From NCBI RefSeq assembly GCF_001866075.3, contig NZ_CP063356.1:2036164-2100163 (forward strand): DNA of 64,000 nt. Reading direction: 5' to 3'. This stretch comes from Anaerobacillus isosaccharinicus (GTDB taxonomy: Bacteria > Bacillota > Bacilli > Bacillales > Anaerobacillaceae). A program made the position numbers and the translations under genes. The notes beneath the pieces are model-generated. The model had not been told where the DNA came from. It ran no database searches and saw only the letters and a list, made by a program, of their open reading frames with translations. How positions within the stretch are numbered: position 1 is the stretch's first letter; every line of letters starts with the position of its first letter. Below, piece by piece: positions 58,165-61,579 of this stretch.

Positions 58165-58314
58165 ATTAATTCTCCATTTTATGTTGGAACCGTTTTCATG
58201 TTTTTTCTAAATTTTTGGACAAATTATCATTTTGTCGTTGTATAATTATTAGTGGAATGAATTTCGTATTCATTTAAAAAAATATAATTTTTTGGTGTGG
58301 AAGGGGAAATTGGA

Positions 58315-59850
58315 TTGGAAAAGTTTAAAGAAAGCATGTATAAGCTAATTGTTGAAACATCTACGAATCTTCCAAACGATGTACGTCGTGCCATCCTTCG
58401 GGCTAAACAGATCGAAAATGCTGGAACAACAGCAGCTTTATCACTTGGAACGATTACAAAAAATATAAGTATGGCGGATACAAATGTATCGCCGATTTGT
58501 CAGGATACAGGGATGCCGACGTTTGAAATTAAAGTACCTGTTGGGGCAAACCAAATTGAAATGAAAAAAGCAATTAAAGAAGCAATTGCTGAAGCAACAA
58601 AAAATGGGAAACTTCGTCCAAACTCGGTTGACTCATTAACAGGTGAGAATAGCGGGAATAACTTAGGTGGTGGAACACCGATTATCCATTTCGAACAATG
58701 GGAAAAAGATGAAATTGATGCTCGCCTAATTTTAAAAGGTGGCGGCTGTGAAAATAAAAATATTCAATACAGTTTACCAGCAGAAATTGAAGGACTTGGT
58801 AGAGCTGGGCGAGATTTAGATGGAATAAGAAAATGTATCCTTCATTCTGTATACCAAGCGCAAGGTCAAGGCTGTAGTGCTGGTTTTATTGGCGTTGGGA
58901 TTGGTGGCGATCGTATCACTAGCTACTCTTTAGCGAAAGAACAGCTTTTCCGTTCTGCTGAAGATGTTAATCCAAACGAAGAGTTACAAAAGCTAGAAGA
59001 CTATGTAATGGAACATGCAAATAATCTTGGCATTGGAACAATGGGCTTTGGTGGTGAAGCGACATTACTCGGTTGTAAAATAGGTACGCTTAATCGCTTA
59101 CCAGCAAGTTTCTTCGTATCAGTTGCTTACAATTGCTGGGCGTTTCGCCGTTTAGGTGTTACATTAGACGGCAACACGGGTGAAATTAAAGAATGGCTTT
59201 ATAAAGACGGTGAAGAAATTAAATTCGCTGACGATGAAGTTGCAGCTGCGACAGAAGTCAAGTCAACGAGTCGTGAGGTTGTTCTACAAGCACCAATTAC
59301 TGAAGAACAAATTCGTGAGCTAAAAGTTGGCGACGTTGTTATTATTAATGGCGACCTTCATACAGGACGCGATGCAATCCATCATCACTTAATGGATCAT
59401 GACGCACCAATCGACTTGAATGGTCAGGTCATCTATCACTGTGGACCTGTTATGTTAAAAGATGAGGCTGGCGAGTGGCATGTTAAAGCGGCAGGACCGA
59501 CAACAAGTATTCGTGAGGAGCCTTACCAAGGTGATGTAATGAAAAAGTTTGGAATCCGCGCTGTCATTGGTAAAGGTGGAATGGGTCCTAAGACATTGAA
59601 AGCATTAGAAGAGCATGGTGGTGTATATCTAAATGCGATCGGTGGAGCAGCTCAATATTACGCAGACTGTATTAAAAAAGTAGAAGGCGTAGACCTTTTA
59701 GAATTTGGAATTCCAGAAGCAATGTGGCATTTAAAAGTTGAAGGCTTTGCAGCTATTGTAACAATGGATTCCCACGGGAACAGCTTACACGCTGACGTTG
59801 ACAAATCTTCATTTGAAAAGCTATCAGAGTTAAAAGATAAAGTATTTTAA
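58315..59850 (+). CDS. fumA: Class I fumarate hydratase (iron-sulfur)
   Basis: 511 residues. Catalyses reversible hydration of fumarate to malate. Iron-sulfur cysteines lie in VSPICQDTG, GGGCENKN and GQGCSAGF; the C-terminal beta domain has KGGMGPKTLKALEEHG and GIPEAMWHLKVEGFA. TTG at 58315 after AAGGGG is preferred; GTG at 58297 would need the site to overlap the coding start. Such oxygen-labile enzymes suit low-oxygen growth. Confidence 0.95.
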   Translation: MEKFKESMYKLIVETSTNLPNDVRRAILRAKQIENAGTTAALSLGTITKNISMADTNVSPICQDTGMPTFEIKVPVGANQIEMKKAIKEAIAEATKNGKLRPNSVDSLTGENSGNNLGGGTPIIHFEQWEKDEIDARLILKGGGCENKNIQYSLPAEIEGLGRAGRDLDGIRKCILHSVYQAQGQGCSAGFIGVGIGGDRITSYSLAKEQLFRSAEDVNPNEELQKLEDYVMEHANNLGIGTMGFGGEATLLGCKIGTLNRLPASFFVSVAYNCWAFRRLGVTLDGNTGEIKEWLYKDGEEIKFADDEVAAATEVKSTSREVVLQAPITEEQIRELKVGDVVIINGDLHTGRDAIHHHLMDHDAPIDLNGQVIYHCGPVMLKDEAGEWHVKAAGPTTSIREEPYQGDVMKKFGIRAVIGKGGMGPKTLKALEEHGGVYLNAIGGAAQYYADCIKKVEGVDLLEFGIPEAMWHLKVEGFAAIVTMDSHGNSLHADVDKSSFEKLSELKDKVF

Positions 59851-59863
59851 AGATTGATAGAAG

Positions 59864-59905
59864 AACCTAAAACGAGGGAAGTTGCTCGTTTTAGGTTTTT
59901 TTTGT
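59864..59905 (+). terminator. Terminator after fumarase
   Basis: AACCTAAAACGAG and CTCGTTTTAGGTT form a perfect 13-bp stem followed by a long T-run. Confidence 0.92.
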
Positions 59906-59924
59906 TTTTTAGAGTGCTTGCAGT

Positions 59925-60616
59925 TACTTAAAAATTGTAAAAAAGGGTGAGGAAGAGAAGATGAGTGCTTGAGATCGCCTAATAAATGTAAAAAGCGGGC
60001 AAGAAGAAGAGAAAAAGCGCCTGATATCACCTAGAAACTGTAAAAAACGGGCGAGAAGAAGAGAAAAAGTGCCTGTGTTCTCCTAGGAATTGTAAAAAGC
60101 GGGCGAGAAGAAGAGAAAAGGCGCCTGAAATCTCCTAGAAACTGTAAAAAGTGGGCAAGAAGAAGAGAAAAAGCGCCTGAGATCACCTAGAAATTGTAAA
60201 AAACGGGCAAGAAGAAGAAGAAAAGTGCCCGAAATCGCCTAGAAACTGTAAAAATCGGGCAAGAAGAAGAGAAAAGGCGCCTTCGATCTCCTAGAAACTG
60301 TAAAAAGCAGGCAAGAAGAAGAGGAAAAGCGCCTGAGATCACCTAGAAATTGTAAAAAGCGGGCAAGAAGAAGAGAAATGGTGCCCGTGATCACCTAAAA
60401 ATTGTAAAATGAAGGATGGAACAAAGTTCTACGGTCTAAAATATCCTAAAAACTGTAGAATATTAGTTCGTAGAAGCACTCTACGGAACAAATCCCCCTA
60501 AAAACTGTAAAACTCCAGCTCGTAAAATCATTCTACGACACAAATCCCCTAAAATATGTAAAACTTTGATACGTAAAATAGTTCACCGGCCTAAATTTCC
60601 CTAAAGTTGTTCAATA
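59925..60616. repeat. Array of fourteen 51-52-bp units
   Basis: The box CCTARAAAYTGTAAAA recurs at fixed spacing: its TGTA starts at 59936, 59987, 60039, 60091, 60143, 60195, 60247, 60299, 60351, 60403, 60454, 60506 and 60557, with a degraded last copy near 60608. Units 1-9 carry a purine-rich filler (GGGCAAGAAGAAGAG), units 10-13 a different one (CGTAGA...TCTACG). Arms such as CGGGC/GCCCG, CAGGC/GCCTG and CGTAGA/TCTACG can pair within each unit. 52 is not a multiple of three, and no long frame spans it, so it is not coding. The DNA from 60617 to 60787 holds no further convincing gene. Confidence 0.9.
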
Positions 60617-60787
60617 CAATCCCAATAAAAGGATCTACAAGCCAAGCTACCCTAATATCAAGCCGTGAAACCGAACTTAAACCTACGGATGTCGCCGTCA
60701 CCGTCATCATTTTCCCACTCCAAACCCTGCGAATATTTTTCTTCACATTGAAAAAACTAACAGAAATTATGTGGAGAGGATGGTTAG

Positions 60788-61579
60788 ATGAAAAAAATCA
60801 TATTTGTTCTACTGTTTGCCTTCGTTTTTCTCGCTGTTCCCCAACTAAATGCTGAAGCTTATAACAATAAAGAGTATAACTGGAGCTTTAACCCAAAGCC
60901 AAATAACCAACCAGCAACGACGGAAGCAGTTTATGAAGAATTACTTAATAAATACGGTGGCTTCTGGATAGGTGATACATCTAAAAAAGAGCTTTATTTA
61001 ACCTTTGATAATGGGTATGAAAATGGGTACACACCACAAATCTTAGATGTGCTAAAAGAAAAAAAGGTTCCAGCGGCATTTTTCGTGACAGGCCATTATC
61101 TATTAGATCAACCAGACTTAATTATGCGGATGACCGATGAAGGGCATATTGTCGGCAACCACTCCTGGCATCACCCTAGCCTAGTGGCAGTTGATGATGC
61201 AAGATTAAAAAGAGAACTTGAAAAAGTAAAGGTCAAATATAAGGAACTAACTGGAAGAAACGATATGATCTATTTACGACCACCACGTGGAGTATTTAGT
61301 GAACGTTCCTTAGCTTTATCAGAACAGCAAGGATACGTTAACGTCTTTTGGTCGCTAGCCTACAAAGATTGGGAAGTGGACAATCAAAAAGGCTGGAAAT
61401 ATGCCTATGATCAAATTATGAAACGAGTTCATCCAGGAGCAATTATGCTTATTCATTCCGTATCAAGAGACAATGCTGAAGCTTTAGATAAGGTTATTGA
61501 TAATTTGCGTAGTCAAGGATATGAATTTAAAAGCCTAGATGATTATATGTTAAGCAAAAAATTGGACGAAATCCAATAA
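60788..61579 (+). CDS. pdaA: Polysaccharide deacetylase PdaA (spore cortex muramic-delta-lactam synthesis)
   Basis: 263 residues, the B. subtilis PdaA length. Signal peptide (KKIIFVLLFAFVFLAVP), then a NodB domain with TFDNGYENGYT, the metal motif GNHSWHHPSL (HxxxH) and RPPRGVFSERS. PdaA removes acetyl from muramic acid during spore cortex maturation. Possible SigG-type boxes CGAATA and AAAACTA (17-bp spacing, 60730-60759) are weak. The gene implies a spore-former. Confidence 0.92.
   Translation: MKKIIFVLLFAFVFLAVPQLNAEAYNNKEYNWSFNPKPNNQPATTEAVYEELLNKYGGFWIGDTSKKELYLTFDNGYENGYTPQILDVLKEKKVPAAFFVTGHYLLDQPDLIMRMTDEGHIVGNHSWHHPSLVAVDDARLKRELEKVKVKYKELTGRNDMIYLRPPRGVFSERSLALSEQQGYVNVFWSLAYKDWEVDNQKGWKYAYDQIMKRVHPGAIMLIHSVSRDNAEALDKVIDNLRSQGYEFKSLDDYMLSKKLDEIQ

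Follow-up and report, generated by a model that had tools for sequence, protein, structure and literature searches.

A non-coding 52-bp array between the fumarase and pdaA genes of Anaerobacillus isosaccharinicus and its place among the constant-length satellites of Bacillus-like Firmicutes

The spacer between the genes for a class I fumarase and the delta-lactam-biosynthetic de-N-acetylase PdaA in Anaerobacillus isosaccharinicus holds a satellite array that almost certainly belongs to a class already in print, the 52-nt repeats of Bacillus-like Firmicutes, in which unit length is constant and sequence variable. The class was described by Subirana and Messeguer in 2021 (PMC8161180), whose survey of 176 Bacillus genomes yielded 4029 tandem repeats, among them 1886 of 51-53 nt and 781 of 20-21 nt; according to the available portion of that text, the 52-nt class occurs in ~30% of species, its units contain short signals together with their reverse, its position is partly conserved between strains, and the proposed explanations are a protein polymerizing on the DNA or transcribed small RNAs. 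The array fits this class in each feature tested and is therefore not a new kind. Its 13 units of 51-52 bp compare with the published period of 51-53 and minimum of four repeats, and both are non-coding; as in the published description, one genome contains many arrays of unrelated sequence and one length, short signals are shared together with their reverse (here a box and a dyad, although a second group of arrays has a different box), arrays of the 20-21 nt class co-occur, and position is poorly conserved, the published comparison being between strains and ours between sister species.

In the 64,000-nucleotide stretch of DNA that was analyzed (the window), the array spans positions 59927..60649 on the plus strand, as do all features listed here. 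As the earlier note on this DNA had proposed, it is flanked by fumarase, a single ORF combining the alpha and beta domains (58297..59850; TIGR00722 and TIGR00723, both above cut-off), and by pdaA (60788..61579; TIGR02884 above cut-off), with the intrinsic terminator of the fumarase gene, a 12-bp stem and a T run, just 5' of the array (59866..59903). Boxes with at most two mismatches to CCTARAAAYTGTAAAA start at 59927, 59978, 60030, 60082, 60134, 60186, 60238, 60290, 60342, 60394, 60445, 60497, and 60548, with a spacing of 51 or 52 bp throughout; the copy at 60030..60045 (CCTAGAAACTGTAAAA) exemplifies the conserved 16-bp box. The fourteenth box that had been counted, at 60599, carries 5 mismatches, so that count was slightly generous: 13 units are clear and one is degenerate. 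Unit 1 (59927..59977) is a degenerate edge unit of 51 bp whose box has 1 mismatch, units 2-9 (59978..60393) are each 52 bp and share filler family A with GGGC-type arms, units 10-13 (60394..60598) are 51-52 bp and carry filler family B, with CGTAGA-type arms that are clear in unit 11 and partial in the others, and unit 14 (60599..60649) is the degenerate one. The two families run in one phase in this composite array, and the arms quoted in the earlier note for units 6, 8, 9, and 11 are present in the sequence. Tandem Repeats Finder (TRF) reports a period of 52 at 59970-60409 (score 593) and at 60445-60564.

The array is non-coding, as previously read: no ORF of at least 60 aa lies wholly within it, a 66-aa minus-strand ORF (59830-60030) and an 82-aa plus-strand ORF (60607-60855) overlap its start and its degenerate last unit, respectively, and the unit length of 52 is not divisible by three. 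All units are arranged head to tail in a single orientation. A CRISPR reading, already set aside in the earlier note, was rejected because whole units repeat one another, rather than near-identical repeats separating unique spacers. A search of a plasmid collection gave no match to the locus.

The regularity of the array is beyond chance, and the box recurs in other places. The exact box identified a second array at 4.507 Mb of the same genome (G000), and a pattern of two boxes at a step of 50-52 gave 43 matches there versus 0 for the reversed control, all falling in seven arrays, the one in the window included. Units 10-13 (filler family B) resemble two arrays located at 678 kb and 314 kb; a composite in a single phase also occurs at 708 kb. 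Among 61 genomes, the two-box pattern matched 4, namely, G000, the sister species G001 (54 matches) and G003 (56), and G023 (1). In the order as a whole, 5 of 397 genomes matched a three-box pattern. Three are again G000, G001, and G003, and the remaining two belong to a single further genus (g77) and match with the same letters as the Ferdinandcohnia loci. When named genomes were scanned, 7 stretches were returned; six come from Bacillus timonensis and Ferdinandcohnia (a name that the records spell Fredinandcohnia) and carry arrays with a period of 52-53, the Ferdinandcohnia arrays having the box CCTAAAAAGTGGAAAG or one near it. The search of the host genome and its relatives that the earlier note had called for thus located the same box in six further arrays of G000 and also in two sister species and in Ferdinandcohnia, and across these box-sharing arrays, hereafter class I, the filler is array-specific. 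The seventh stretch of the named-genome scan, in Methanoflexus, an archaeal metagenome-assembled genome, was rejected as a chance pair of boxes; TRF gave no tandem array of ~52 bp there. In Bacillus timonensis, two arrays of unlike sequence adjoin (L102). Two arrays were left out of the class I counts: a 51-bp array of G023 (L060:3644-3813), with a box like CCTAATTAGTGAAAA and its inverted repeat at another position in the unit, and L061, an inverted near-copy of the L056 array on the same contig (G003 C3), ~25 kb away near the contig end, this pair being either an inverted duplication or an assembly artefact.

Within class I arrays, the box and the step are held far more tightly than the filler. 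The ten core box columns deviate from the array consensus by 0.008, versus 0.118 for the filler, and the box is the lower of the two in 17 of the 17 arrays compared (at least six 52-bp units each, inner units only), although locating units via the box, with three mismatches allowed, favors this result. The class II arrays described below were found by TRF alone, and 3 of the 4 show runs of invariant columns around ACCC, the units of the other (L077) being out of register. For a phased array with a conserved box, the earlier note had named random unit length in relatives as the contrary outcome, and this did not occur: of the 194 steps measured in class I arrays (G000, G001, and G003), 171 equal 52, 12 are 51, 5 are 53, and 6 have other lengths, some of the odd values coming from a draft contig with N letters. 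Adjacent 52-bp units differ by 7.3 substitutions on average (143 pairs), and still only 23 of the 194 steps depart from 52.

A weak inverted repeat is also kept in the filler, centered at unit position 32.5-33 in two genera. With the box omitted, the axis that gives the most Watson-Crick pairing across the unit is 32.5 or 33 in all 5 pooled sets (G000, G001, G003, Ferdinandcohnia at 53 bp, and Ferdinandcohnia quinoae at 52 bp), which are not fully independent and the last of which is one array. Compared with arms taken from other arrays, the gain is small: 0.412 versus 0.373 at axis 32.5 (18 arrays, t 2.0) and 0.380 versus 0.332 at axis 33 (18 arrays, t 1.6). When the axis was searched freely in single arrays, 32.5-33 came out for 9 of the 18 arrays from the genus and for 3 of the 4 from Ferdinandcohnia (12 of 22 class I arrays overall), the array in the window taking a different axis. 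In class II, the dyad is elsewhere, ~42 from ACCC in 3 of 4 arrays by cyclic search (L067, L077, and L092), and for L098 ~42 ranks first or second in the fourth orientation tried. Tested against base shuffles, 16 of the 27 published consensus units and 6 of the 12 units from the present analysis have inverted arms at p <= 0.05. The arm covariation described earlier is borne out in part: there is some symmetry, but covariation within arrays is weak, with pairing kept in 22 of 48 two-sided changes where a third is expected by chance.

To place these arrays in the wider repeat content, TRF was run on 40 evenly spaced 20-kb stretches of G000 (800 kb), which revealed six period-52 loci, five with 6-18 copies (L065, L067, L077, L092, and L098) and L064 with 2.4. 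The class I box is present in two of the six, L064 and L065 (the array at 449 kb), and the other four form class II, starting with ACCC and carrying a box other than that of class I; one of them, L067, adjoins a class I relic at 708 kb. The other repeats with units longer than 30 bp in this sample are located in open frames (L068, L071:15548, L077:11859, and L101), have about two copies (L072, 75 bp; L079, 89 bp; L081, 192 bp), or consist of doubled 21-bp units (L071:12532). In the sister species G002, which has no class I match, two period-52 arrays in 400 kb are of a third kind of sequence, and in eight further genera, sampled at 100 kb each, period 52 occurs in G024 alone, from a distant genus, whose arrays are again of unrelated sequence; three of them reach at least three copies and a fourth has 2.4. 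It is the period, not the sequence, that stays constant across these arrays.

The whole repeat sample comprised 2.06 Mb, the window included, and its table retains arrays of at least three copies at score 90. Among the non-coding entries, period 52 appears eleven times (the array in the window included), beside L064, which is listed under its internal period of 18. Period 21 appears in L071, L085 (a 7-bp repeat read as 21), L148, L190, and twice in L191, and the remaining non-coding entries have periods of 42 (L221), 85 (L219), 64 (a CRISPR-like array), and 151 (a tRNA repeat); an open frame runs through the period-42 array of L226, leaving its non-coding status uncertain, and the rest of the table lies in open frames. 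Periods of 21, 42, and 52 correspond to approximately 2, 4, and 5 turns of B-DNA and 85 to approximately 8, with the reservation that 21 and 42 are also multiples of three, so that the open-frame filter, which is crude, matters for them. The arrays with steps of 21, 42, and their multiples, in L190 and L191 (G010), L226 (G041), L221 (G024), and L148:1668-1831 (G002), probably represent the second published class. The 85-bp units of L219:14493-15363 (G024) show further periods of 128, 213, 256, and 298; the CRISPR-like array (L147:13653-17463, G002) has the repeat GTTTTATAGCAACTATGTGGAATGTAAAT at a step of 64-66; and the tandem 151-bp repeat (L207:14682-15169, G038) contains a tRNA-like stretch in 3.2 copies.

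In their genomic neighborhoods, 16 of 20 arrays share the strand of their upstream gene and 1 of 20 is located between divergent genes (by a crude ORF call); a crude scan placed a terminator-like hairpin 5' of 10 of the 20, and one array follows a tRNA cluster. The site before pdaA turns over between species. The 52-bp array is absent there from all 6 other species of the genus by box search and TRF of the spacers: none contains two boxes at up to two mismatches, three contain one chance match, and TRF gives no period near 52. In G001, G002, G003, G005, and G006, the pdaA spacer, of 138-425 bp, follows an ORF ending like fumarase, and in G004 the ORF upstream is different. In G005, the spacer (L114) contains 21-bp repeats (CAACAAA...), for which TRF gives 3.6 copies at 68% and inspection by eye gives six units, and a hand-picked stretch has a lag-21 identity of 0.57, with 0 of 500 shuffles as high. 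The 21-bp and 52-bp classes occupy one orthologous site, in G005 and G000, respectively. In another genus (G027), an array just 5' of pdaA (L180:758-1285) has 115-bp units of alternating 52 and 63 by TRF, and its TGTCCAATAGA arms resemble a published B. thermoamylovorans 52-nt family.

Our leading, if tentative, interpretation is that the array serves as a helically phased binding platform for a putative DNA protein and is kept uniform by unequal exchange. A near-invariant directional box, a step of five turns, and drifting filler are compatible with a protein bound to every box from the same side of the helix. Under this model, the array would act as double-stranded DNA with one directional 16-bp box per unit, and the five-turn units would place every box on the same helix face, where a sequence-specific protein, whose existence, polymerization, and nucleoid role we infer, could bind the boxes side by side to form a filament or loop. 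The weak inverted repeat in the middle of the filler might provide a second, loosely specified contact or a bendable element. Unequal crossing-over and conversion between units would homogenize each array, selection would keep the box and the 52-bp step, leaving the filler free to drift, and arrays would become established 3' of genes, where they are tolerated, and would be gained and lost from one species to the next. We count in favor of this platform the low variation of the box, the step fixed despite drift, the same architecture and dyad position in Ferdinandcohnia, the lack of an RNA strand signal, and the turnover of the site before pdaA. The DNA-binding or chromosome-organizing array suggested in the earlier note stays the leading idea. 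Against it are the other boxes of other arrays in the same genome, which one sequence-specific protein must tolerate, or several proteins are needed; the weakness of the dyad; the orientation shared with the upstream gene, which transcription-linked roles also predict; and the transcription reported for the 52-nt repeats of B. coagulans in the available text of PMC8161180 and PMC8625621.

The sharing of one step by arrays of unlike sequence, the hardest fact for a single protein, is the one that best suits an amplification or exchange rule, and the binding platform is ahead of such a rule by a small margin. A self-propagating or neutral satellite that brings the cell no benefit is accordingly a real possibility, somewhat less probable than the platform. 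Its step would be dictated by the machinery that amplifies or exchanges units, through slippage, for instance, or through template switching from one inverted arm to the other, and its box would be what that machinery requires; the low box variation could reflect such a requirement of amplification. The rapid turnover before pdaA, the homogenization within arrays, the composite two-family arrays, the inverted arms of the published families, and the predominance of positions 3' of genes, where insertions are tolerated, all agree with a neutral satellite, but the 51-53 step is common to distant genera as well as to unrelated sequences, no enzyme was found, and the Y1 transposases do not track the arrays. 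We know of no protein for either explanation.

The earlier note had taken G-U pairs as marks of the plus strand, and a multi-hairpin non-coding RNA transcribed from that strand, acting as a sponge or giving rise to small RNAs, would be consistent with the arms that can pair, the reported transcription in B. coagulans (available text of PMC8161180 and PMC8625621), and the shared strand of the upstream genes. The strand tests did not support this reading. On the best dyads of 28 arrays, the non-Watson-Crick cells number 75 for G-T and 64 for A-C, corresponding to 44 and 45 distinct events; earlier counts gave 50 versus 45 cells with unrestricted helices and, fixed to the dyad, 57 versus 40 cells or 38 versus 37 events (these pair counts required at least four distinct units per array, which removed L052b and L055 from the earlier counts and L104 and L108 as well from the 28-array count). 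Folding of the filler is weak and alike on both strands (mean z of -0.72 for plus and -0.64 for minus), the plus strand being the more stable in 9 of 24 arrays. A structured RNA should show more G-U than A-C departures, so that this symmetry argues against structured RNA as the selected product, and together with the equal folding it leaves the plus-strand reading without support. At the gathering score, Rfam matches in 20 loci were five tRNAs and a c-di-GMP riboswitch, all outside the arrays, and the three matches to the array in the window were at chance level; the terminator-like hairpins that the crude scan placed before 10 of the 20 arrays likewise weigh against this RNA. The evidence thus supports an array that behaves as a DNA element rather than as a structured RNA, and we consider the RNA unlikely. 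An array of the REP/BIME type tied to a RAYT-type Y1 transposase is highly improbable, its extragenic, palindrome-bearing position 3' of genes and the Y1_Tnp genes in 6 of 7 genomes of the genus being offset by the single orientation of the units and by 7 Y1_Tnp matches in G002, which has no class I match, versus 6, 2, and 7 in the class I species.

A broader extension of the binding platform, which we offer as speculation with a low chance of being right, is that the 52-bp and 21-bp satellites might be two forms of one chromosome-organizing system in Bacillus-like bacteria, in which steps of whole helical turns (2, 4, 5, or 6) would align recognition boxes on one face of the DNA for a putative polymerizing protein, the step would be under stronger selection than the sequence, and the forms would interchange at one site. 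The site before pdaA, with its 52-bp, 21-bp, and alternating 52 and 63 repeats in G000, G005, and G027, is the case in point.

Among known systems, the REP/BIME arrays of enterobacteria are extragenic and consist of inverted-repeat units near the 3' ends of genes, as do the arrays described here, but BIMEs alternate in orientation and have one common palindrome, whereas our units run head to tail and their palindrome varies between arrays. As an analogy only, alpha-satellite DNA with its CENP-B box similarly combines monomers of fixed length, a conserved box of 16-17 bp, drifting filler, and homogenization by unequal exchange; it is eukaryotic, 171 bp per monomer, and nucleosomal, and has no kinship to the 52-bp arrays. 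The non-coding satellites of Leptospira interrogans (PMC6749651) are also tandem repeat families dispersed over a bacterial chromosome, but their repeat lengths differ by family (37, 46, and 69; Table 2), and the available text reports no constant length across unrelated sequences. The available part of PMC4060949 contains nothing on the 52-bp class. With respect to the 52-nt class itself, the box CCTANNAANTGKAAAA was not seen by eye among the consensus repeats in Table 1 of PMC8161180, and the available text of that paper reports no fixed dyad axis, strand-symmetry test, or measure of box versus filler variation. The class was already known; the array in the window is a new member, and these three measurements are what the present comparison adds. 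Why unrelated bacterial satellites keep one length is a question that the authors of PMC8161180 put in print, and the present comparison splits it into testable parts: the near-invariance of the box, the constancy of the step, the dyad position shared by two genera, and the results that speak against a one-strand RNA structure. These direct attention to DNA-binding proteins and helical phasing rather than to small RNAs.
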